NCBI GenBank assembly: GCA_903872065.1
Contig: CAIQJJ010000772.1
Span: 1-33,602, forward strand
Reading direction: 5' to 3'
Origin: an uncultured Anaerolineales bacterium
GTDB taxonomy: Bacteria > Chloroflexota > Anaerolineae > Anaerolineales > UBA4823
DNA length: 33,602 nt
Below are positions 22,241 through 32,691 of this stretch, piece by piece; within the stretch, counting starts at the first letter, position 1, and each line of letters opens with the position of its first letter. Under the pieces are notes generated by a model. The model did not search any database, was not told the DNA's origin, and saw nothing but the letters and a program-made list of their open reading frames with translations. The position numbers and the translations under genes are program-made.

Positions 22241-22335
22241 AAGCAAACTCCTTTTCCAGGGCAGATACTCTTTGCCCAAAATCGCAGCAGCGACAATGCG
22301 ACATTTGCACACCTATCGCCGCCGAGAATACCGAT

Positions 22336-22368
22336 AAAAAAAGGGCTGCTCTTTTGCTTGAGCAGCCC
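22336..22368 (-). terminator. Attenuator terminator in the glutamate synthase leader
   Basis: On the minus strand GGGCTGCTC (22368-22360), an 8-nt loop, and GAGCAGCCC (22351-22343) are followed by seven T residues (22342-22336). It lies about 95 nt upstream of the amidotransferase ATG, pointing into the operon, so it must be read through for expression. Confidence 0.85.
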
Positions 22369-22418
22369 CCGTAAATTCTGAGGATTTCTATTGCTACACC
22401 GATTCGATCAACAGGTAT

Positions 22419-22426
22419 GGCTGCTC
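22419..22426 (-). promoter_or_regulatory. Antiterminator segment overlapping the leader stop codon
   Basis: Minus-strand GAGCAGCC (22426-22419) is identical to the 3' arm of the terminator and can therefore capture its 5' arm, GGCTGCTC, preventing termination. It starts inside the leader-peptide stop codon, so a ribosome sitting at that stop would cover it. Confidence 0.6.
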
Positions 22427-22499
22427 AACACTGATGGATTACGCTCCCATCAGCGGCCATAGCACGGTCGGTCATAGCAGTCATAGAAACCAGATTCAT
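22425..22499 (-). CDS. Putative 24-residue leader peptide of the glutamate synthase operon
   Basis: ATG at 22499 is preceded by AGGA seven bases upstream and reads 24 codons to TGA (22427-22425): it begins MNLVSMTAMTDRAMAADG and ends VIHQC. Four Met and four Ala codons, and one Gln codon just before the end, are present; there is no run of Glu or Gln codons, so the regulatory signal is unclear. A perfect CTGATGG/CCATCAG hairpin (22431-22453) lies within its second half. The position of its stop on the antiterminator segment argues that its translation matters. Confidence 0.45.
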   Translation of the reverse strand: MNLVSMTAMTDRAMAADGSVIHQC

Positions 22500-22546
22500 G
22501 GTGTGATCCTGTTGCGAGAACTCTGAATAAAAACCTTACGAGCCTA

Positions 22547-22574
22547 AGTTTACTGTTTTGTCACAGAAAGTCCA
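22547..22574 (-). promoter_or_regulatory. Candidate promoter of the glutamate synthase operon
   Basis: Minus-strand TGGACT (22574-22569), a 16-nt spacer and TAAACT (22552-22547) give a moderate sigma70 match. A start near 22541 would leave about 40 nt before the leader peptide. An identical-quality alternative was not found. Confidence 0.35.
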
Positions 22575-23009
22575 TTGACATTAAACCTGAAATTTGTGGT
22601 TCACTTTTAGGTAATTTGCCTATACTTCCATCCGCGCGCGCCGAATCCACCGCGGGGACGCGGCGGGAAAACATGCGCGTTAGAATTCAGCTTTGCGCGG
22701 CGGCGTAGGCGTTGTTTTGCGCGGGATGTGGGGAAGCGTCCGCTGGTTCAAACCAGCGGTTGATATGGGAAACCAACTGAAGTTGGTTGGGAAGTCTGGC
22801 GCAGTGGGCGCGCTCGAGGTTGACCAGGGCATGGGAAGATCAGCCCTGGCGCGCCGATTGCATTATAATTATGAAGCAGATAGATGGATTTGACCTGCCG
22901 CGCCGCCGATGGCAAATCCGCAGGAAGTCTTGTGGGTTTGCTCATCTTCTGCGGGCGCTGCGTCAGAAGGCAGGAAAGCAAGGTATTTGGGTCATCAGCA
23001 GGAATTACC
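22575..23009. other. Intergenic region rich in hairpins between the glt operon and the CARF gene
   Basis: No gene is supported in this roughly 435-base gap. It holds GC-rich low-complexity sequence (22632-22740), three perfect short palindromes (22740-22855), and a -10-like TATAAT at 22864-22869 without a good -35. Open frames starting at 22871 and 22884 run through but show no coding character; the latter is merely the in-frame extension of the CARF gene. It holds no CRISPR repeats. Confidence 0.6.
22740..22855 (+). repeat. Cluster of three perfect palindromes upstream of the CARF-HTH gene
   Basis: CCGCTGGTT/AACCAGCGG (22740-22759), AACCAACT/AGTTGGTT with a GA loop (22771-22788), and CCAGGGC/GCCCTGG (22824-22849). 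The last sits within an outer GGCGCGC/GCGCGCC stem (22807-22855). Such short back-to-back hairpins look like dispersed palindromic repeats or a folded RNA. They lie immediately before the TATAAT at 22864. Confidence 0.5.
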
Positions 23010-23891
23010 ATGTCAGATCATCCTCAAACAAGTTTGGTTTGTACTCTGGGTGGGCAGCCGCAGATCGTAACGTTTACTTTGGATGCGCTCTTACAGCGCG
23101 GCGAAGCAATGGATGAGGTTTTTGTGGTGTATATGGCCGCCAATCCACGCTACCGCCAGGCTTATCAACGCCTGGCAGATGAGTTTGCCGGCGGCCGCTA
23201 CGCCGGCAGGCCCTGCCGCCTGCATGGGGAAGCAGTGCGGTTGGGAGACCAGGCTTTGGCAGAGGCGCGCCAGCCGGCGGAAGTAGACGCGGTCTGGCAG
23301 ACTTTTTACCGCTTGCTGGGTGGTTTGAAGGCGCAGAATCGGCATGTTCACTTGAGTTTGACAGGCGGACGGCGGGTGATGGCTCTATTGGCTTGCGCGG
23401 TGGCGCCCTTGCTCTTGACGCCTGGAGATAAAATCTGGCATCTTCATACCCCAGAGGAGGTCATCACCCTGGCGCAAGAGGGAGCGATGATGCACACGCC
23501 GCCGGAAACCGGGGTGCATTTGATTGAGGTGCCGTTGGTCGCGTGGGGATCCTACTTTCCGGGGGTGCGTGGGTTGTTGGGACGGTCGCCCCAAGAAGCG
23601 CGAGCCGTCCACCTGGGCTTATTGGACGAGAATGAACGTGCGCGCTGTCGCCAGGTGTGGGAGCAAATCAACCCGCGCCAACGAGATGCGCTGCGCGCCC
23701 TTTGCGAACATCCGACGCGAGAATTGGCCGCCAAAGAATTGTACATCAGCGTCGGCACCCTGGACGATCATAAGACGGAAATTCTGCGCCGCTGCCGCCA
23801 GGCCTGGCAGGTGGAGGCGGGGCAAAAATTGGATGTGGTTTTCTTGCGCCAAAAGTTCAAGCCTTTTTTGGCGCTGCTGAACGAAGGATAA
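23010..23891 (+). CDS. CARF-domain (NE0113/Csm6-like) protein with LuxR-type helix-turn-helix
   Basis: The 293-residue protein starts with TSLVCTLGGQPQIVTFTLDALL, the signature of the NE0113 CRISPR-associated family (often named ring nuclease Csm6), then LSLTGGRRVMALLACAVAPLL at about residues 115-135; this is a CARF fold for cyclic-oligoadenylate binding. Residues 220-265 (INPRQRDALRALCEH... YISVGTLDDHKTEILRRC) match a LuxR/GerE DNA-binding helix-turn-helix position by position. No HEPN RxxxxH site was seen. The likely role is a signal-dependent regulator, possibly also degrading the ligand. ATG 23010, with AGGAA upstream, is preferred over 22884, whose extra 42 residues look non-coding. It precedes cmr1 by 166 bp in the same direction. 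Confidence 0.82.
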   Translation: MSDHPQTSLVCTLGGQPQIVTFTLDALLQRGEAMDEVFVVYMAANPRYRQAYQRLADEFAGGRYAGRPCRLHGEAVRLGDQALAEARQPAEVDAVWQTFYRLLGGLKAQNRHVHLSLTGGRRVMALLACAVAPLLLTPGDKIWHLHTPEEVITLAQEGAMMHTPPETGVHLIEVPLVAWGSYFPGVRGLLGRSPQEARAVHLGLLDENERARCRQVWEQINPRQRDALRALCEHPTRELAAKELYISVGTLDDHKTEILRRCRQAWQVEAGQKLDVVFLRQKFKPFLALLNEG

Positions 23892-23911
23892 CCCTGCCGG
23901 TTGTGAGCATC

Positions 23912-23941
23912 ATCCGCGCCGGTTCGGAAATTTTTCCGCGC
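23912..23941 (+). repeat. Hairpin with 12-mer shared with the region before cas8b
   Basis: CGGAAA (23925-23930) and TTTCCG (23933-23938) form a short palindrome. The preceding ATCCGCGCCGGT (23912-23923) recurs exactly at 31845-31856. The site lies just after the CARF-HTH stop and before cmr1. It may be a shared regulator site, terminator remnant or dispersed repeat. Confidence 0.35.
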
Positions 23942-24057
23942 GACTGGGGATGACAAACAGAACCTGACAGGCTAAGATTTTGATCCACGCCGGGGCGATT
24001 TATGTCCCGAGGGCGGAGCGCGGCAGTTTATGAAGTCAATTTTTGGAAGGAGGCTAT

Positions 24058-25233
24058 ATGCAAAAGATCGATGTGACGTTGGAGACAATGACGCCGTTGT
24101 TTTTGGGCGGAGCAGGAGGTAAAACTGCCCCGCCGGAGTTGAGACCCCCTGCTTTTCGTGGAGCGATGCGCTACTGGCTACGCGCCGCGTTGGGCGGAAT
24201 AATAGGAGATGATGAGAACGCTATGAAAACAATCGTTCAATTAGAGGGAAAGGTCTTTGGCTCCGTTCGCGAGGAAAGTTCAAATGCCGCATCAGAAATC
24301 GTTACTCGCATAGCAAATTCTCAAATGATGCCATACATCACATACCAAAGAGAGTCAAGTAAGAACGCTCCTCCAACTGGGAAAGATTATTTATATTGGT
24401 CTATGTTTGTTGGAGAAAACGCTTATTACTATCCACCTGGTGGAAAATTTGACTTGATCTTAAATTCTCGGCCAGGTTTATCAGATTCGCAAGATTCTTT
24501 CACAAAAGCCATAGTTGCCTTATGGTTACTGATCCACTTAGGCGGCATTGGTTCACGTTCACATCGAACGGCCGGAAGCTTATCCGTCCAACAAGTTCAG
24601 ACTATTGAAAAGTTACAGTTTGGGTTGGTGAAAAACAGTTATGCTGAGATGGCAAAGCAACTGGGCGACAATATCTCTAAAATACGAGCAATACTGCAAA
24701 CACCTGGATCTACTGGAATTCAATGGGACAAACGGCAAGCAGAATTTGATATCTTACATCCAGATGTATGCCAGATTTGGCTTCTTGGAGCATGGGGATC
24801 TGCGGATGTAGCTATTGAAAATATAGGTAAACGTTTACAGGAATTCCGCAACCGCCGAGATCCGGATCACCGAAATGTCGCCAAGTGGTCGCAAGGGGAA
24901 AGCATACCTACAGTAGAAAGGGCCGCTTTTGGTCTGCCACTCGGCTATCGTTACACAAATGGCCTATCCGGTACTATACAAGGGCGCTTAGGGCGAGACA
25001 GTATTGAACGGCGGGCTTCACCGCTGTGGCTAAGTATTTCACGTATTGATTCTAAAGTGTGTATTGCAACCGCCACTCTTTTTAAATCACGTTTTTTGCC
25101 TGAAGGAGAAAAACTTTATGCTAAAAAATCATCTAATGAACGTTTAGGAATTGCAATACCTAAAGACTACACCTTGATTAACAAATGGATAACAGAGAGT
25201 TTTCCCAAGGCAGTGGAGGTCTATTATGTCTGA
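24058..25233 (+). CDS. cmr1: Type III-B CRISPR RAMP protein Cmr1
   Basis: The 391-residue protein is a RAMP with two RRM-like halves. The N-terminal MTPLFLGGAGGKTAPPELRP and PPAFRGAMRYWLRAALGG are the Cmr1 signature; GGIGSRSHRTAGSL near residue 165 is the glycine-rich loop. Cmr1 caps the 3' end of the Cmr filament near the target-RNA end. ATG 24058 has a strong AAGGAGG five bases upstream. Its base composition is visibly more A+T-rich than the surrounding chromosome, suggesting separate ancestry. It overlaps cmr2 by 8 nt and is the first gene of the cmr operon. Confidence 0.92.
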   Translation: MQKIDVTLETMTPLFLGGAGGKTAPPELRPPAFRGAMRYWLRAALGGIIGDDENAMKTIVQLEGKVFGSVREESSNAASEIVTRIANSQMMPYITYQRESSKNAPPTGKDYLYWSMFVGENAYYYPPGGKFDLILNSRPGLSDSQDSFTKAIVALWLLIHLGGIGSRSHRTAGSLSVQQVQTIEKLQFGLVKNSYAEMAKQLGDNISKIRAILQTPGSTGIQWDKRQAEFDILHPDVCQIWLLGAWGSADVAIENIGKRLQEFRNRRDPDHRNVAKWSQGESIPTVERAAFGLPLGYRYTNGLSGTIQGRLGRDSIERRASPLWLSISRIDSKVCIATATLFKSRFLPEGEKLYAKKSSNERLGIAIPKDYTLINKWITESFPKAVEVYYV

Positions 25234-26962
25234 CTCTGTCCTTCTCTTCACCTTCTCTCCCGTACAAACCTTTATTGCAGAGGCGCGGCGTGCAGAAGAT
25301 TTGTTTAATGGCAGCGCCATCTTGGTTAAACTGGCGGAAGCAGCAGGGCAAGCACTGGGTGTGAATAATTTGATCTATCCCGCCGATCTTAACAAAGGCG
25401 ACATTCCCAATGTGTTAACAGCAAAAATTCCAACCAACGAAGTGAAAACGCGTGCTGAGGCCGCCGGTAAGGCCCTGCTGCAATGCTGGCAATCTATCGC
25501 TGAACAAGCCCATAAGGCCGCTAAACTGCACGAGGATGATACCTGGAAAGCTATCTGGGAACGGCAAATTACCCAGAATCCACCCTGGCAAATTTTTTGG
25601 GCATCCGCAGAGATGAAAGATATTGCAGATTATGCCGGCGCCTACACACAAGCGCGCGAGAACCTGGATGCAATCAAACGCAGCCGCACTTTTGAACCAA
25701 TCGAAGAATTCGGTCAAAAAGACAGTCTCAGTGGACAGCGCGAGGCGTTGCACAAAAATAATATCAAGGCAAAAGCTTATTGGAAAGAAATGGCCAATTT
25801 GCCTGGAATCACTGCTTCCCGCTTGCGTCCGGAGGGTCGAGAATGCCTGGATTCGGTTGGGCTGGTGAAGCGTTTTGCTTCAATACGAAAGGACAATATT
25901 CCTTCAGTTAGCACAGCGGCTGCATGGGATTTTTATCAACGCTCAAAAAAAGAAGCCCCATTAGAACTAGAGGCCTATCGTCAGGCCATAGAAGATTTCA
26001 GACCAGCCCTATATAAACCGCGCAAAGATGATCCTGTTTGGCCTTTCGACGGCGACTTATTTTTCAAAGAAACGCTTACACCCGGGCGCATGAAAGACAG
26101 TTACGGTTTGGAAGTAGGACGCCCTGACCTGGAAGGATTACAAAAACTTCTTAAGACCCTGCACGAGAAGATTGGCAGCCCCTCTGCATATTATGCAATT
26201 ATTGTATTGGACGGCGATGACATGGGCAAACACTTGGAAAGACTTCTCGATCCAACAGAGAAAGCAGAAGAGGCCCATCGAACCTTCAGCGGTCGCTTGG
26301 CTGAATTTTCCCTGTCTGTACAAGAAATAACGACAGAACAGAATGGCGCTTTCAGAGTTTATAACGGCGGGGATGATGTGGTTTGCCTGGCAGCGCGAGA
26401 ACAGGCGATTGGGTTGGCACGCGATCTGGCGAGCAGATTCTACAAAGCCACAGGCTGCACCGCCTCAGCCGGGGTAGCGATTGCTCATCATTTAACACCA
26501 TTAGGACTGGCTTTGGAAGCCGCGCGTTATGCTGAAAAAGAGGCCAAGAAATTGGAGAAGAAGAATGCCATCTGCATAAATTTGCTCAAACGCAGCGGCA
26601 GCCCACTGATGGCGCGCAGCAAATGGGAAAACCTGGACATCTATGATGATGTGCTGAAGCAGATAGAAGACGATCACATTACTTCTCGCTTGCCTTATGC
26701 GCTAGAACGCGATGCCCCAACCCTGGCAGCGCTGGAGAAAGCTGGTCAGATTGCCGGGTTGAAATACTTATTAGGGCGACATTCTAAGGATGTTGTAAAC
26801 TTACCAGGACTGGCGGAACGATTACAAAGCTGGGCAGAGCATTTAAATCATGCGATGGAAAACGGATCACACCCAGACTCGTCAAAGCAAAAACTCGGTT
26901 TGCCAGAAGTTGCAAAATGGCTAGTAGCAGCGCGCTTCATGGTTTCTGGTGGAGGTGAGTGA
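25226..26962 (+). CDS. cmr2: Cmr2/Cas10 with cyclase motif, lacking the HD domain
   Basis: The 578-residue protein begins directly with SVLLFTFSPVQTFIAEARRA, the first palm-associated region of Cmr2; no N-terminal HD nuclease (HD motif) precedes it. The palm motifs are DGDD at 329-332 and an intact GGDD at 381-384 (VYNGGDDVVCLAA), followed by GVAIAHHLTPLGLALEAARYAEKEAKK. The protein should therefore synthesise cyclic oligoadenylate on target RNA binding but not cleave ssDNA through HD. Typical Cmr2 proteins with HD are about 700-900 residues, so this is a natural short form rather than a broken one. The start overlaps the end of cmr1; the stop overlaps the cmr3 start (TGATG). Confidence 0.93.
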   Translation: MSDSVLLFTFSPVQTFIAEARRAEDLFNGSAILVKLAEAAGQALGVNNLIYPADLNKGDIPNVLTAKIPTNEVKTRAEAAGKALLQCWQSIAEQAHKAAKLHEDDTWKAIWERQITQNPPWQIFWASAEMKDIADYAGAYTQARENLDAIKRSRTFEPIEEFGQKDSLSGQREALHKNNIKAKAYWKEMANLPGITASRLRPEGRECLDSVGLVKRFASIRKDNIPSVSTAAAWDFYQRSKKEAPLELEAYRQAIEDFRPALYKPRKDDPVWPFDGDLFFKETLTPGRMKDSYGLEVGRPDLEGLQKLLKTLHEKIGSPSAYYAIIVLDGDDMGKHLERLLDPTEKAEEAHRTFSGRLAEFSLSVQEITTEQNGAFRVYNGGDDVVCLAAREQAIGLARDLASRFYKATGCTASAGVAIAHHLTPLGLALEAARYAEKEAKKLEKKNAICINLLKRSGSPLMARSKWENLDIYDDVLKQIEDDHITSRLPYALERDAPTLAALEKAGQIAGLKYLLGRHSKDVVNLPGLAERLQSWAEHLNHAMENGSHPDSSKQKLGLPEVAKWLVAARFMVSGGGE

Positions 26963-28017
26963 TGTATATCTTTTTACAACCTGAAGATGTTCTCCTGTTT
27001 CGTGATGGGCGTCCTTTCAACCAGGGTGAAGATCATCACGCTCGCAGTGTTTTTCCACCCCTGCCCTCAGTCATGCAGGGCGCAATTCGTTCACATTACC
27101 TGGTGATACAAGGCATCCCGTTGGATGATAAGAAACGCATCATCGAAACAGTCGGAACAGCAGAAGATTATAAGGCATTACGTCTGCGCGGGCCATTCTT
27201 GTCGAAGCGCCAAAGCGAGGGGGTGACCCGCTACTTTCCCACCCCGGCAGATGCTTTTGTTCTGAAAAAAGAGGCAGGTATCATCTTACCAGCGACGCTG
27301 CAACCAAATTCCGGTATGAACAGCCATACCCATTTGCCTTACTTACTGTGCAAGCCGCAGCGCGTGCCCAGGACAAAAGATAAACCTGACGCCTGGTTGA
27401 GCGAAGCGCAATTGAAAAATTACCTGGTGGATGGTACAGAAGCCCAAACCACCCCTGAGAATGTTTTGTTTGTGCGTGAGACTCGCCTGGGTATTCAACT
27501 GGATCATTGGAGTCGCACGTCCAAAGACGAGATGCTCTACCAGGCCGAATTTATCCGCCCCATGGATGAAATTGGGTTATCCCTGGAAGTGAAGGGATAC
27601 CCTAACTGGCCTTCAAGCGGCCTGATGCGAATAGGCGGCGAGGGGCATGGCGTCTATTTCCTAGAAGTGGGCGCGCCAAAGGATGTATTCCCATGCCCTA
27701 AAACACTTTGGATGCGCTTCAAAGTCTATTTTGCTACCCCGGCTTATTTCAACGCCGGCTGGCAACCCCATGATTGGGGCGAGTTTTTTGAAGGCAATGT
27801 CACACTCCAGGCGGCAGCGATCTCTGGTTCGCTGGTTGCCAGTGGATTCGATTATGCCAGAAAGCAGGAAAAACCGGCGCGGCGTTATGTCCCGGCCGGA
27901 AGTGTCTATTACTTTTCTTGTAAAGGTCAGGCGCGTTTGAAAACCGACGCCATCAGTCAATATGGAGCCGAGATCGGCTTTGGTCAAATTTTCGTTACTG
28001 AGTGGAAGGAGAGATAA
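26962..28017 (+). CDS. cmr3: Type III-B CRISPR protein Cmr3
   Basis: The 351-residue RAMP shows the Cmr3 hallmark LLFRDGRPFNQGEDHHARSV near its start and PPLPSVMQGAIRSHYL after it. The C-terminal GFGQIFVTEWKE glycine-rich strand is in place. Cmr3 binds Cmr2 and the 5' handle of the crRNA at the base of the complex. ATG 26962 overlaps the cmr2 TGA by one base; an in-frame GTG one codon earlier is possible but less likely. GGAGGTGAG upstream is the Shine-Dalgarno. It is followed by cmr4 after 2 nt. Confidence 0.92.
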   Translation: MYIFLQPEDVLLFRDGRPFNQGEDHHARSVFPPLPSVMQGAIRSHYLVIQGIPLDDKKRIIETVGTAEDYKALRLRGPFLSKRQSEGVTRYFPTPADAFVLKKEAGIILPATLQPNSGMNSHTHLPYLLCKPQRVPRTKDKPDAWLSEAQLKNYLVDGTEAQTTPENVLFVRETRLGIQLDHWSRTSKDEMLYQAEFIRPMDEIGLSLEVKGYPNWPSSGLMRIGGEGHGVYFLEVGAPKDVFPCPKTLWMRFKVYFATPAYFNAGWQPHDWGEFFEGNVTLQAAAISGSLVASGFDYARKQEKPARRYVPAGSVYYFSCKGQARLKTDAISQYGAEIGFGQIFVTEWKER

Positions 28018-28019
28018 TC

Positions 28020-28934
28020 ATGTTTACTGAAAAACGTATCGTGTTCTTATATGTCGAAACGCCCTTGCACGTTGGCGCGGGGCGCGGCGCGGGCGCGGTA
28101 GATTTGCCCATTCAACGCGAGCGCGTAACCGGCTATCCAATGGTTCAGGCCGCCGGGTTGAAAGGCTGTTTGCGAGCGGCCTATCGCGATGAAAACAAAT
28201 TGAGTGATGAAGACGAAAAAGTAAAAGCCCTGTTTGGACAAGCGGGCGATAAAGGCGATAACTATGCTGGAGCGATCGTCCCCGGCGATGCACGGATTTT
28301 GCTCCTGCCGGTGCGATCTCTGGCGGGTGTTTTTGCCTGGGCAACAAGCTGTCACGCCCTGGCCTCTTTCCAACGAGCGACGCGGCTCGCCGCGCAGGAA
28401 GTCAAATGGACAATTCCTGTTTCGCCCTCAAAGGAAAACGCTCTGGTTTGCAAACCAAACGATTTACAAATTGATCAGAATATCGTTTTGGAAGAGTTTA
28501 GCTTCACAGCCAAAGATTCTGTCCAGGTCAATGAAATTGCCAAATGGCTGAAAGAGAATGCTTTGCCTGCCCTGCCAGAATACAGTTACTGGAAAGAATC
28601 CATCTCCAAACGCCTGTGCATTTTGTCCGAAGATGCTTTCCGCGACTTTTGCCTTTACGCTACCGAAGTGCAAACCCATGTCAACCTTGATCCGAAAAAG
28701 AAAACCGTGAAAAAAGGAGCCTTATGGACTACTGAGAGTTTACCCACCGATAGTTTGCTTTACGCGCCATTGATGGCAAGTCCTGTTCGCAATGGCAAGG
28801 ATGTACGTGAAGCATCTGCTGTGCTGAATGAGTTTGATACTCTTAATCTTACCCATCTGCAGCTCGGCGGCGATGAAACCACTGGGCAGGGATGGGTAGC
28901 AACTCGTTTTTATCCTGGATTGAAGAAAGCATAA
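28020..28934 (+). CDS. cmr4: Type III-B CRISPR backbone RNase Cmr4
   Basis: The 304-residue RAMP is the repeated backbone subunit that cuts target RNA at 6-nt steps. It begins with FLYVETPLHVGAGRGAGAVDLPIQRE; Asp28 in this loop corresponds by position to the catalytic aspartate of known Cmr4 proteins. GYPMVQAAGLKGCLRA and, near the C-terminus, LQLGGDETTGQGWV are further family marks. AAGGAGAG lies before ATG 28020. With Asp28 present, target-RNA cleavage should be intact. It is tightly coupled to cmr3 and cmr5. Confidence 0.92.
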   Translation: MFTEKRIVFLYVETPLHVGAGRGAGAVDLPIQRERVTGYPMVQAAGLKGCLRAAYRDENKLSDEDEKVKALFGQAGDKGDNYAGAIVPGDARILLLPVRSLAGVFAWATSCHALASFQRATRLAAQEVKWTIPVSPSKENALVCKPNDLQIDQNIVLEEFSFTAKDSVQVNEIAKWLKENALPALPEYSYWKESISKRLCILSEDAFRDFCLYATEVQTHVNLDPKKKTVKKGALWTTESLPTDSLLYAPLMASPVRNGKDVREASAVLNEFDTLNLTHLQLGGDETTGQGWVATRFYPGLKKA

Positions 28935-28945
28935 GGAGCGATGGA

Positions 28946-29332
28946 ATGGACGCAAAGATCAGCCAACAGCGCTCATTGGAACAAGAGCGCGCCAAAGCCG
29001 CCTGGGAAGAAGTGAAAAAGGCGAAAAACGCAGATTATCAGAAGAAATATAAATCCCTGGCACGTTCCGCGCCGGCAAGTATTCAACAAAATGGCTTGGG
29101 GCAAACCTTAGCGTTTTGGCGCGCCAGGCCAGACGAGAAACACCAGCAGGCTTTGTATGATGCTGTTTCCAATTGGGTTAAAAGCCAGATAAAGTGGCAG
29201 GGAAACAGCCATCTACTTGAATGGATTGTTAATCAAGCGCAATCGGATGAATACCGCCGGTCCACCGGTGAAGCGATTGCTTTTTTACAATGGGTTAAGC
29301 GCTTTGCTGAAGCAGAATTGGAAGGTGAGTAA
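28946..29332 (+). CDS. cmr5: Type III-B CRISPR small subunit Cmr5
   Basis: The 128-residue, all-helical, highly charged protein fits Cmr5: an N-terminal coil with RSLEQERAKAAWEEV, SLARSAPASIQQNGLGQTLAFW (the most conserved Cmr5 segment), and a helical C-terminus ending WVKRFAEAELEGE. Cmr5 stacks along the filament beside Cmr4 and holds the target strand. AAGGAG is seven bases before ATG 28946; an out-of-frame ATG at 28941 is ignored. It overlaps cmr6 by one base (TAATG). Confidence 0.9.
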   Translation: MDAKISQQRSLEQERAKAAWEEVKKAKNADYQKKYKSLARSAPASIQQNGLGQTLAFWRARPDEKHQQALYDAVSNWVKSQIKWQGNSHLLEWIVNQAQSDEYRRSTGEAIAFLQWVKRFAEAELEGE

Positions 29333-30198
29333 TGCCTGACAAACAATATCCCATTCCCCAAAAGAGTGCTATCGCAATCAACGCGATTAAGGCTCATCAA
29401 CCCCATAATCCTGGCCTGGTTTTTGAGCGTTTTGCTCCCAATTGGGGCGCAGCCCCAAAGAGAGAACAGCCACGTTGCAAGAAAGAAGGCCTGGAGGCTG
29501 TTACACAATATCAAGCAGATAAGGCCGCCTTGCAAGCTTACGGGCAGCGGTGGCAAGCAATCGCCGCCAAAATTCAAGCTATTCCTTTTTCACTCAAAAC
29601 TGATTGGCGATTCATTCCCGGGTTAGGGCGTAAAGGCCCATTGGAAGTAGGATTCTCGTTTCATCGTTACGGCTTTCCAATCCTGCCGGGCAGCAGCGTT
29701 AAAGGCCTGGCGCGCGCTTGGGCATTCTTCCAAATCGTTGAACTGGTAGGACAAACCAATCTGGAAGATTTGGAAAAAAACCTCTGCGACGGTGAAGAAG
29801 AGTGCAAAAAATTCCTGCTATGGCGTAAACAACAATCGCCAGCCGTTCAAAAAATGGGGGATGAATTTCGAACCATCTTCGGCACCACCACTGAATCAGG
29901 CAAAGCTGTCTTTCTAGACGCTATCCCTGCCAGCCCGCCTAAACTTGAACTGGATGTGATAAATCCGCACTTTCCGAAGTATTACAGCGGCGGGGAAAAT
30001 TACCCGACCGACTGGCAAAGCCCGGTGCCAGTCACATTCCTCACCGTTGCCGCCGGACAAGAATTTATGTTTGCTGTTGGTTGGAGTGACAAAGATAATT
30101 CTGAACTGCGCGGCAAAGCCAACGCATGGCTCAAAGAGAGTCTACAAAACTTGGGCGCCGGCGCAAAAACCAGCGCCGGGTATGGATATTTTGGGTAA
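29332..30198 (+). CDS. cmr6: Type III-B CRISPR RAMP protein Cmr6
   Basis: The 288-residue RAMP shows the Cmr6 pattern: SFHRYGFPILPGSSVKGLAR (about 105-125), FGTTTESGKAVFLDAIP, NPHFPKYYSGGENYPTDW, and a glycine-rich end GAGAKTSAGYGYFG. Cmr6 lies at the far end of the complex next to Cmr1 and contacts the crRNA 3' part. The ATG shares its A with the cmr5 stop, so they are translationally coupled. It is the last structural cmr gene; 65 bp separate it from the CARF-RelE-like gene. Confidence 0.92.
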   Translation: MPDKQYPIPQKSAIAINAIKAHQPHNPGLVFERFAPNWGAAPKREQPRCKKEGLEAVTQYQADKAALQAYGQRWQAIAAKIQAIPFSLKTDWRFIPGLGRKGPLEVGFSFHRYGFPILPGSSVKGLARAWAFFQIVELVGQTNLEDLEKNLCDGEEECKKFLLWRKQQSPAVQKMGDEFRTIFGTTTESGKAVFLDAIPASPPKLELDVINPHFPKYYSGGENYPTDWQSPVPVTFLTVAAGQEFMFAVGWSDKDNSELRGKANAWLKESLQNLGAGAKTSAGYGYFG

Positions 30199-30263
30199 AC
30201 TGTTAGCCATTCGGCGAATATTTACCACCGGAAGGCAAATTGAGAAACATGGAGAATGATGTC

Positions 30264-31085
30264 ATGCCTCGTCAACCCTACTTTGTACTTTCATTTTGCG
30301 GTACCAGTTTGTTAACAAATGGTCTGGAAAAGGTTGATCAACAATTATTAAGAGATCAGACAAATTCTAGATCAGAACAGGAAGTTCCAGCGGAATACAG
30401 AGCAAGAATGCGAGAACTTCTCGAAAAGCAAAAAGCTAATTTTTTAGCAGCGACAATTCAAAAAGCAGAAGAGCTTTCAGCCGAATTCAAAGGTATCTCC
30501 AAACTATATCAGGGAAACCTGGTATCTCCTCCCGGACAATCGCCTGATGAACATGTCTTGTTATGTACAGACACCTGGCAAGGAGAAATTGCCGCCCAAA
30601 GCGTGCGCGAGCGACTTCGACAACGGGGGTTCAACGCGCATGTGGAAAGAAGGAAGGATTTGCACACTGCTGAAATTGAGTCTTTCCAGTTAGCGTTAGC
30701 GGACTTGGTTATCTGGTGCGCTGACAACATTCCTAATTATCGTAAAGCGGGCTATCATATCATTTTCAACTTGACGGCTGGCTTCAAAAGTATTCAAGGA
30801 TTTCTGCAAACATTGGCAATGTTTCATGCAGATGAGAGTATCTATGTATTCGAAAGCAACACAGCGCCTTTGTTGGTTATTCCTCGACTGCCAATCAAAA
30901 TGCACCCCGACGACGCCATCCAGTCAAATTTGTATGTGTTTCGGCGTTTATGGTTAAAATTAGATGTAAGTCCAAATGAGCTTGAGAACGTCGCAGAAAC
31001 TTTGCTAATGCGCTTGGGAAACGAGTTTTCACTTTCGGCATGGGGGGACCCTGGTCTGGGAACAAACTTATCGTCAAATTTATGA
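30264..31085 (+). CDS. CARF-domain effector (Cas_APE2256-like), N-terminal part before frameshift
   Basis: This 273-residue open frame starts MPRQPYFVLSFCGTSLLTNG, a CARF strand-loop, and continues to NLTAGFKSIQGFLQTLAMFH and YVFESNTAPLLVIPRLPI, the pattern of the APE2256/TIGR02619 CRISPR-associated family. A helical linker follows. Translation ends at a TGA (31083-31085) soon after a G6 run at 31042-31047. Beyond that run the coding continues in another frame, so the predicted product loses its effector domain. ATG 30264 is preferred with GGAG nine bases upstream; ATG 30249 is an alternative. It is A+T-rich like cmr1 and probably co-transcribed with cmr genes. Confidence 0.75.
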   Translation: MPRQPYFVLSFCGTSLLTNGLEKVDQQLLRDQTNSRSEQEVPAEYRARMRELLEKQKANFLAATIQKAEELSAEFKGISKLYQGNLVSPPGQSPDEHVLLCTDTWQGEIAAQSVRERLRQRGFNAHVERRKDLHTAEIESFQLALADLVIWCADNIPNYRKAGYHIIFNLTAGFKSIQGFLQTLAMFHADESIYVFESNTAPLLVIPRLPIKMHPDDAIQSNLYVFRRLWLKLDVSPNELENVAETLLMRLGNEFSLSAWGDPGLGTNLSSNL

Positions 31086-31389
31086 ACAGAAAATTTGGCC
31101 TTCGCCAAGTCCGAAAATTCGGTACGGAAATAAATTTGAAGAAAGTGTTAAAAGCATTGAATCTCATCGCATTACTCAGGTTAACCAAAAAATAGATGAC
31201 TTATCTGCATACCTTGAGGGAAAGGGGGCAAATTTGCGATCACTTGATTTCAAAGAATTAAGGGGCAATCCTTTGCCCCCTAATACCCACGAAATGGATG
31301 CCTGGGCAGATCAAGACGCCAAACGCTTGTTCGGATATTTCGATGGAGAGGTCTTTGTCCTGGATCGTTTGGGTAAAGCTCTCCACTAA
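31009..31389 (+). pseudogene. Frameshifted C-terminal half of the CARF effector, RelE-like
   Basis: In the +1 frame an uninterrupted reading runs from 31009 to TAA at 31387-31389, with no start of its own. Removing one G from the G6 run fuses the two frames to a 374-residue protein reading WGTLVWEQTYRQIYEQK at the join. The final ~85 residues (KFEESVKSI, LDFKELRGNPLPPNTHEMDA, RLFGYFDGEVFVLDRL) look like a RelE-type fold: a helical pair, then a beta-sheet ending in a hydrophobic strand. CARF-RelE proteins such as Cami1 are cOA-activated ribosome-dependent mRNases. Whether this is mutation, phase variation, programmed frameshifting or assembly error cannot be decided here. Confidence 0.65.
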
Positions 31390-31440: not shown

Positions 31441-31821
31441 ATGCTCCTCCTCAACTTCTCCCACCCCCTTACCCCCGCTCAACAGGCGCAGATCGAGACC
31501 CTCACCGGTCAGCCGGTGGAGCGAGTGATTGCTATCCCCAGCCAGGTAGATGTGCAGCAGCCGTTGGCGGCGCAAATCGCGCAAATGGTCGAAACCGCCG
31601 GGCTGTCAGCGCAAGAATGGCAGACTGCGCCGATCCTGCTCATCCTGCCGGCGTTGAACTTCAGCGCGGCGGCCCTGCTGGCCCATTTGCACGGCCTGAT
31701 GGGGTATTTCCCCCCTGTGACGCGCCTGCGCCCGGCGGCGGATGTGCTGCCGCCGCGCTACGAAGTGGCCGAGATTATGAATTTGCAGGCCATCCGCGAC
31801 TCCGCCAGGCAGAAACGTTGA
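31441..31821 (+). CDS. csx15: CRISPR-associated protein Csx15 (predicted ring nuclease)
   Basis: The 126-residue protein matches Csx15 throughout: [19 protein letters not shown], then [44 protein letters not shown], and a C-terminal [14 protein letters not shown]. Csx15 is predicted from CARF-superfamily analysis to degrade cyclic oligoadenylate and so switch off type III signalling; this is computational, not shown for this gene. No Shine-Dalgarno precedes ATG 31441, so translation may be leaderless or weak. It stands between the broken CARF effector and the cas8b-like gene, a fitting place for an off-switch. Confidence 0.82.
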
Positions 31822-31829
31822 AATCTCTG

Positions 31830-31856
31830 CCGGCTCGGAAGAAAATCCGCGCCGGT
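31830..31856 (+). repeat. Hairpin between csx15 and the cas8b-like gene
   Basis: CCGGC-T-CGGA (31830-31839), a 6-nt loop, and TCCG-C-GCCGG (31846-31855) form a nine-pair stem with one mismatch. It contains the 12-mer ATCCGCGCCGGT also present at 23912-23923. It starts 9 nt after the csx15 stop and has no T-tract. Confidence 0.4.
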
Positions 31857-31890: not shown

Positions 31891-32691
31891 ATGTTGAAAT
31901 ACACCGGTCATCCGATGGTAGATGTCGGCCTGGCGACGATGACCGCCTTTGCCAACAAAGATTCGCCCGAGGAACTGAAAGATTCGGATTTAGATGCTGT
32001 TGCTCGATTCATGGAAAGAGAATATGTGCAGCAACCCCTTAAATCTTATCTGACAGTTGCATTTACCAGCAATGCCTGGTTTATCCAAGATGCTTACAAT
32101 CCTGAGCCAAAAGGAAGAATTATTTCTGCTCAAGACAAAGCGGACAGGTTGGCAAAACGTAAAGAATTATCGGATGCGCATTTGATGCAATGGAAAACGA
32201 CAAAGCCGCGCAAGGATGGCGCAGCCTGCGTTTTTACTGGATTGCCTGCTGTGACATCTGAATTATCCGGCAAATTATCATCGGGCAGGGCCGCACGCTG
32301 CCAGGTACCTTTATTGCAAGGCGATGAGGCGATCAATTTCTTTGTAAATGGCGATCCCGGCCTGGCGATCTCCGGCGAGGCGCTGCTGGCGATCCAGGCT
32401 TTACCGTTGGGCAGCGCCAAGTGCGCCGGGCGGCTGTTTTTTGTGCATTCTGATAACCCTGAAATCTTGCGCTATTTTGCCGGCCAGTTTTTGGATGAAA
32501 ACCGGCGCGCAATTCAACTGGCGCAAGCAAGCGGCGAAAGCAAGATGCCCGAACCAAAGCTCAAATATCGCACCCTGTTGATAGACATGCTGCTTGAAGC
32601 CTTGCGCGGGGGTGGCGGCGCGGCGTTTGCAGGAGAGTATCTGGCATCCAATGCAGAAGATCACGGTTGCAGATTTCTTTGGAGGCACTAA
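31891..32691 (+). CDS. Cas8b1/Cst1-like protein, shortened, zinc motifs eroded
   Basis: The 266-residue protein opens MLKYTGHPMVDVGLATMTAFA, the signature of the Cst1/Cas8b1 (CXXC_CXXC) family, the large subunit of type I-B Cascade. The central PLLQGDEAINFF and QALPLGSAKCAGRLFFVHSDNP also match. The first expected CxxC reads CVFTG and the second GLAISG, so the zinc-binding cysteines are mostly gone. The family normally runs well beyond 400 residues; this one stops after AFAGEYLASN without its C-terminal half. cas7 and cas5, which normally follow, are absent before cas3. AGGA lies eight bases before ATG 31891. It may be a decayed remnant or a reduced variant. Confidence 0.7.
   Translation: MLKYTGHPMVDVGLATMTAFANKDSPEELKDSDLDAVARFMEREYVQQPLKSYLTVAFTSNAWFIQDAYNPEPKGRIISAQDKADRLAKRKELSDAHLMQWKTTKPRKDGAACVFTGLPAVTSELSGKLSSGRAARCQVPLLQGDEAINFFVNGDPGLAISGEALLAIQALPLGSAKCAGRLFFVHSDNPEILRYFAGQFLDENRRAIQLAQASGESKMPEPKLKYRTLLIDMLLEALRGGGGAAFAGEYLASNAEDHGCRFLWRH

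Follow-up and report, generated by a model that had tools for sequence, protein, structure and literature searches.

A CARF protein with a LuxR-type helix-turn-helix at the head of type III CRISPR operons in Chloroflexota: a candidate cA4-gated regulator with a conserved tandem operator

The route from a cyclic oligoadenylate signal to gene expression is poorly understood. A role in regulating transcription was predicted in 2014 for Csa3 and for the CARF proteins of the NE0113 family (PMC4012209), and surveys of type III effectors leave transcription factors aside (PMC11229360). Csa3a, the best-studied CARF transcription factor, bound DNA nonspecifically and independently of cA4 in vitro (PMC8699464), so that coupling between a CARF domain and a helix-turn-helix (HTH) is not to be assumed. 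In the literature searched, we found no paper joining CARF with LuxR or GerE, and as far as that search extends, the LuxR-type HTH, the operator, and the module described below are unreported, the transcriptional role itself having been predicted in 2014.

We analyzed a stretch of DNA of 33,602 nucleotides (here, the window) that carries a gene combining these two domains, with the following features:

23010..23891, + strand: CARF-LuxR regulator gene, 293 aa
23010..23579, + strand: CARF domain (residues 1-190), from Pfam PF09623, fold match, Sso2081 alignment, and conservation
23622..23888, + strand: LuxR/GerE tetrahelical HTH domain (residues 205-293), from Pfam, family profile, and fold
23751..23804, + strand: recognition helix (residues 248-265), with T250 and H254 near invariant

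The open reading frame begins with the ATG at 23010, behind an AGGA-type ribosome site, and ends with the stop codon at 23889-23891; the frame stays open 5' as far as an ATG at 22884, and homologues start at 23010. The initial annotation had read the N-terminus as a CARF domain of the NE0113 type, and this was confirmed by Pfam Cas_NE0113 (PF09623), which matched residues 16-187 of the window protein (2.5e-31; 109.5 bits versus a gathering score of 23) and all 57 of 57 members of the family. The PADLOC model CARF3--CARF (PDLC01855), which names no effector, matched residues 6-287 at 6.8e-97. The full-length AlphaFold model (mean pLDDT, 93) had as its closest CARF folds Cad1-CARF (Z, 18.6) and Sso2081, i.e., Crn1 (Z, 17.8). 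CARF motif I is T12-L-G-G-Q16 and motif II is G119-G-R-R122, and both TLGG and GGRR are conserved across the family. Motif II resembles the cA4-binding GRK of Sso2081, and together with the fold similarity to cA4-bound CARFs, it makes cA4 the predicted ligand. In the alignment to Sso2081, motif I corresponds to G14-G15-Q16 (family consensus, GGQ) in place of the G-T-S of Crn1-type proteins, and the NCBIfam model TIGR02584 (“CRISPR-associated ring nuclease Csm6”) reached 31 bits, below its curated cut-off of 80.65. With GGRR kept and GGQ in place of GTS, the CARF domain should therefore sense, and not destroy, cA4.

The C-terminus of the window protein alone gave weak NarL matches (E, 0.048-0.08) and no Pfam GerE match when searched singly. 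Therefore, we assembled a set of 57 homologues, all from one class. Within this set, PF00196 (GerE) was matched by 56 of the 57 members (best, 1.5e-14), the exception being the window protein, which fell below the limit and whose HTH departs from the consensus at several recognition-helix positions (G249 and D253). Compared with the PDB, the family profile matched a response-regulator HTH (4wt0, 2.1e-10), VraR (5.5e-10), and NarL (2.3e-9) over residues 218-264. When the C-terminal 90 residues were folded separately, the model was all helical (pLDDT, 95), with Z values of 10.3 for EL222, 9.7 for FixJ, 9.1 for VraR, and 8.9 for NarL. Since Foldseek E-values for the isolated HTH were poor (best, 0.12), the LuxR assignment rests on the VIA-align Z values, the family profile, and Pfam. 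The model has no beta strands in residues 204-293 and therefore no winged helix like that of Csa3. Searches of the window protein found no wHTH, HEPN, or WYL domain (HEPN in Pfam scans), and one PADLOC model over it bears the label “CARF+WYL C.” The match of the C-terminus to the LuxR type is far beyond chance, and the domain, as modeled, is a tetrahelical LuxR HTH, neither a winged helix nor a nuclease domain. The fusion proposed in the initial annotation, with its LuxR/GerE pattern near residues 220-265 and its distinction from the winged helix of Csa3, thus held in the Pfam, profile, and fold comparisons as well as in the survey of homologues; the HEPN or other nuclease at the C-terminus that would have spoken against it was not what these searches returned.

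Along similar lines, the position of the gene ahead of cmr1 was as first described, since a complete cmr1-6 operon follows it in the window:

24058..25233, + strand: cmr1 (ATG at 24058)
25226..26962, + strand: cmr2/cas10, with the cyclase motif GGDD at residues 381-384 and without an HD motif
26959..28017, + strand: cmr3
28002..28934, + strand: cmr4
28892..29332, + strand: cmr5
29332..30198, + strand: cmr6
30240..31085, + strand: CARF-RelE (Cami1-like) effector, shortened, its RelE end lying in another frame to about 31389
31441..31821, + strand: csx15

A frameshift splits the CARF-RelE effector (30240-31389), either by true decay or by assembly error. The effector types near CARF-LuxR genes were Can2, Csx1, and CARF-RelE, which are cA4 activated (PMC11229360). 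The gene csx15, whose function has been reported as open (PMC12409355), turns up repeatedly in CARF-LuxR loci. A 37-nt stretch between csx15 and cas8b (31820-31856; ATG of cas8b at 31892) recurs with 73% identity before cmr1 (23887-23923) and may be a second, degenerate operator tying the III-B to the I-B operon. In a relative (L141; G065:C107:9629-9644), the region from csx15 to cas8b contains a canonical dyad, TCAGAGGTTTTTCTGA, and the regulator may therefore control a type I operon too.

Given these features of the window, we looked at the genomic context of the family. A codirectional cas10 or cmr1 gene lay no more than 3.5 kb away in 45 of the 52 loci with enough sequence (19 Csm1, 19 Cas10d, and 7 Cmr2), although these loci are not independent, since they share ancestry. 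The CARF-LuxR gene therefore heads operons of three type III subtypes, III-A, III-B, and III-D. A csx3-AAA gene was divergent from the regulator gene in 47 of 58 loci; a strong “motif” 5' of the regulator turned out to be the coding sequence of this neighbor and was discarded. In a phylum-wide search, the protein was present in 45 of 301 genomes at an E-value of 1e-20 or better, with nearly all matches full length, and the loci in other classes of the phylum had mostly the same neighbors, that is, the same module. Outside the phylum, plasmid pRMAR01 of Rhodothermus marinus carries a homologue directly before csm1-5 (L133:8971-9876; WP_041806822.1), which has the HTH C-terminus yet is named “CRISPR-associated ring nuclease.” The genome of the window itself has a second copy, split at two overlapping contig ends (G000:C98:17237-17785 and G000:C541:3314-3787), with csx3-AAA divergent and csm1 downstream. 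No phage-borne copies with the conserved pattern were found in IMG/VR.

The operator was sought in 59 gaps downstream of the regulator gene (towards cas10). Counting gapped dyads, we found TCAGA-N6-TCTGA in 9 loci, versus a maximum of 2 after shuffling. An unseeded symmetric EM search for de novo palindromes in the same gaps converged on ATCAGARRWWYYTCTGAT, with a log-likelihood of 164 versus 39-46 in shuffles. The dyads are 18 bp long and stand in tandem, with 12 pairs spaced by 22 bp, 3 by 23 bp, and hardly any by another distance. When the dyad alone was used to align the sequences, a TAnnnT -10 box emerged at +22 to +27 (T in 20/30, A in 25/30, and T in 21/30), 21 nt past the proximal dyad. 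If this box is taken as -12 to -7, the dyad centers fall at about -42.5 and -64.5. Both the 22-bp dyad spacing and the 21 nt to the -10 box were exact in 27 of 39 promoters, and the -35 was weak (mean of 3.05 of 6 matches versus 2.39 at random). This geometry is that of a class II activator-dependent promoter, with its fixed position near -41/-42. Dyad bases 4/15 and 5/14 covaried as complements (P < 0.001), as is needed for recognition by a symmetric dimer.

The strength of the motif was evaluated in several ways. In left-out scoring, 17 of the 59 gaps reached at least 14 bits, versus 0.4% of random windows, and a joint operator/-10 model placed 28 loci above all shuffles (in sample). When the model was frozen and applied to 35 out-of-sample gaps, 12 passed the threshold of P < 0.01, of which 10 also passed P < 0.001. 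The motif recurred in untrained genomes from other classes, and a Chloroflexus-like group had a variant with the half-site ATCAG and 23-bp spacing. Genome-wide, across 19 genomes, roughly one in two distinct exact TCAGARNNNNYTCTGA sites adjoins a regulator gene. At csm1 genes, the operator was found in 1 of 11 cases without the regulator versus 7 of 17 with it, the latter figure being low because two known sites lay beyond the cut. Overall, the operator was detected in about half of the family only. One locus (L184; G171:C82) has a near-perfect tandem operator (joint score, 38) before csm1, with no CARF-LuxR gene in the G171 assembly, reflecting either recent loss or an assembly gap.

In the window itself, the candidate sites were as follows:

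23912..23929, + strand: candidate distal operator dyad ATCCGCGCCGGTTCGGAA, degenerate, from the joint operator/-10 model
23934..23951, + strand: candidate proximal operator dyad TTCCGCGCGACTGGGGAT, degenerate, 22 bp from the distal one
23923..23940, + strand: alternative-register dyad TTCGGAAATTTTTCCGCG, fourth in rank among all dyads of the window
23950..23978, + strand: sigma70-like promoter ATGACA-17-TAAGAT for the cmr operon, from an independent promoter scan
22740..22788, no strand: two perfect short inverted repeats upstream of the gene, not the conserved operator

The best joint placement had the canonical geometry, with the -10 box at 23973-23978 (P = 0.005 against its own shuffles and 0.017 against pooled ones). 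The promoter at 23950-23978 was the sole one in 22300-24100, where 1.1 are expected by chance, and sits where the geometry predicts. Two dyad registers compete here, both with ATCCG/TTCCG-like half-sites that are common to the closest relative (L035). There is one exact TCGGAAANNTTTCCGM site in the window's genome, where good sites were too few to call a whole-genome regulon. The palindromes upstream of the gene, CCGCTGGTT-CA-AACCAGCGG (22740-22759) and AACCAACT-GA-AGTTGGTT (22771-22788), were also considered as operators; they are real hairpins, but with one and two genomic occurrences, and relatives do not conserve them. The operator claim of the initial annotation was thus upheld for the gap downstream of the gene, where the evidence is strong in relatives and weak in the window, and was dropped for the upstream palindromes.

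Given that the gene fronts type III operons whose promoters often have a matching pair of sites, the alarm probably activates the immune system to which it belongs. We favor as the probable reading that the protein is a cA4-gated one-component activator of its own type III operon, acting as a feed-forward amplifier. Cas10 of the same locus would detect phage RNA and produce cyclic oligoadenylate, most likely cA4, which the CARF dimer would bind. The LuxR domains would then occupy the two tandem 18-bp dyads in the gap that separates the cas operon from its regulator, and the bound protein would help sigma70 RNA polymerase to initiate transcription where the -35 is weak. In this way, the alarm would boost the very complex that makes it. 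The Csx3 domain of the divergent csx3-AAA could be the brake, given that archaeal Csx3 is a ring nuclease for cA4 (PMC7371418). The broader proposal, that csx3-AAA, CARF-LuxR, and the tandem operator form a portable cassette serving in Chloroflexota as a self-amplifying switch of III-A, III-B, and III-D systems with a Csx3 brake, is one on which we are evenly divided.

The sign of the regulation could also be the reverse, although we consider this unlikely. As a repressor, the apo form would cover the -35 region by occupying the dyads, and cyclic oligoadenylate would release it, derepressing the operon on infection. The proximal dyad does overlap the -35 hexamer, a placement that would suit a repressor too, and in a few loci (L055, L071, L045, and L044), a dyad stands 14-22 nt ahead of the start codon of the regulator itself, hinting at self-repression. 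However, two dyads kept at a constant 22 bp from each other and a constant 21 nt from the -10 box, combined with a weak -35, are typical of an activator-dependent promoter, and the sites of repressors are usually less constant in position. It seems more doubtful that the protein activates without gating by cyclic oligoadenylate, its CARF pocket being a relic or reading another molecule. There are precedents, since Csa3a binds cA4 without a change in DNA affinity (PMC8699464) and the CARF domain of RtcR is described as serving RNA-repair signals (PMC9650030). Such a protein would fit poorly with the strict linkage to cas10 (45/52 loci), the conservation of GGRR and TLGG, the GGDD kept by Cas10 of the window, and the adjoining csx3. 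Finally, a protein that is mainly a ring nuclease, with the HTH as a structural appendage, is very improbable: the name of the R. marinus homologue and the nearest CARF folds (Crn1/Sso2081 and Cad1) point that way, but motif I is GGQ and not the GTS said to mark cyclic oligoadenylate-cleaving CARFs (PMC10018336), the TIGR02584 score is 31 versus 80.65, and a conserved operator would be senseless for a pure nuclease.

Because the family combines a soluble one-component protein with an explicit operator and a bacterial sigma70 promoter, it allows the question of whether the alarm amplifies its own system to be addressed with purified parts. The annotation of at least one “ring nuclease,” that of R. 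marinus, is also corrected, as the family profile has no aligned catalytic motif and the C-terminus is predicted to have a DNA-binding fold.

In order to put CARF-LuxR into perspective, we compared it with known systems. It is a member of the NE0113 (Cas_NE0113) family (PADLOC CARF3--CARF, PDLC01855), related proteins of which are annotated as ring nucleases; what is added here is the LuxR-type HTH, the operator, and the csx3-AAA partner. CalpL-CalpT-CalpS is likewise a cA4-triggered transcriptional response of bacteria, as proposed for CARF-LuxR, but it works through a SAVED-Lon protease and the release of a sigma factor and not through a one-component DNA-binding sensor (PMC11229360). Archaeal Csa3 shares with CARF-LuxR the combination of a CARF sensor with a DNA-binding domain, the association with CRISPR, and a palindromic promoter element (reported as CAPPa for Csa3). 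However, Csa3 has a winged HTH, acts at archaeal promoters, and is found mostly near type I adaptation genes, while CARF-LuxR has a tetrahelical LuxR HTH, a place at the head of type III operons, and a sigma70-type tandem operator. Crn1 (Sso2081) has the closest CARF fold, with GTS in motif I where CARF-LuxR has GGQ, and Sso1393, a CARF-wHTH ring nuclease, has a C-terminal HTH too, but one of another class. The HTH fold itself is shared with the NarL/FixJ/LuxR regulators, in which the sensor is a receiver or autoinducer-binding domain, whereas in CARF-LuxR it is a CARF domain. CARF-LuxR also has in common with these regulators a dyad near -42, the position of class II activators and of the lux box.
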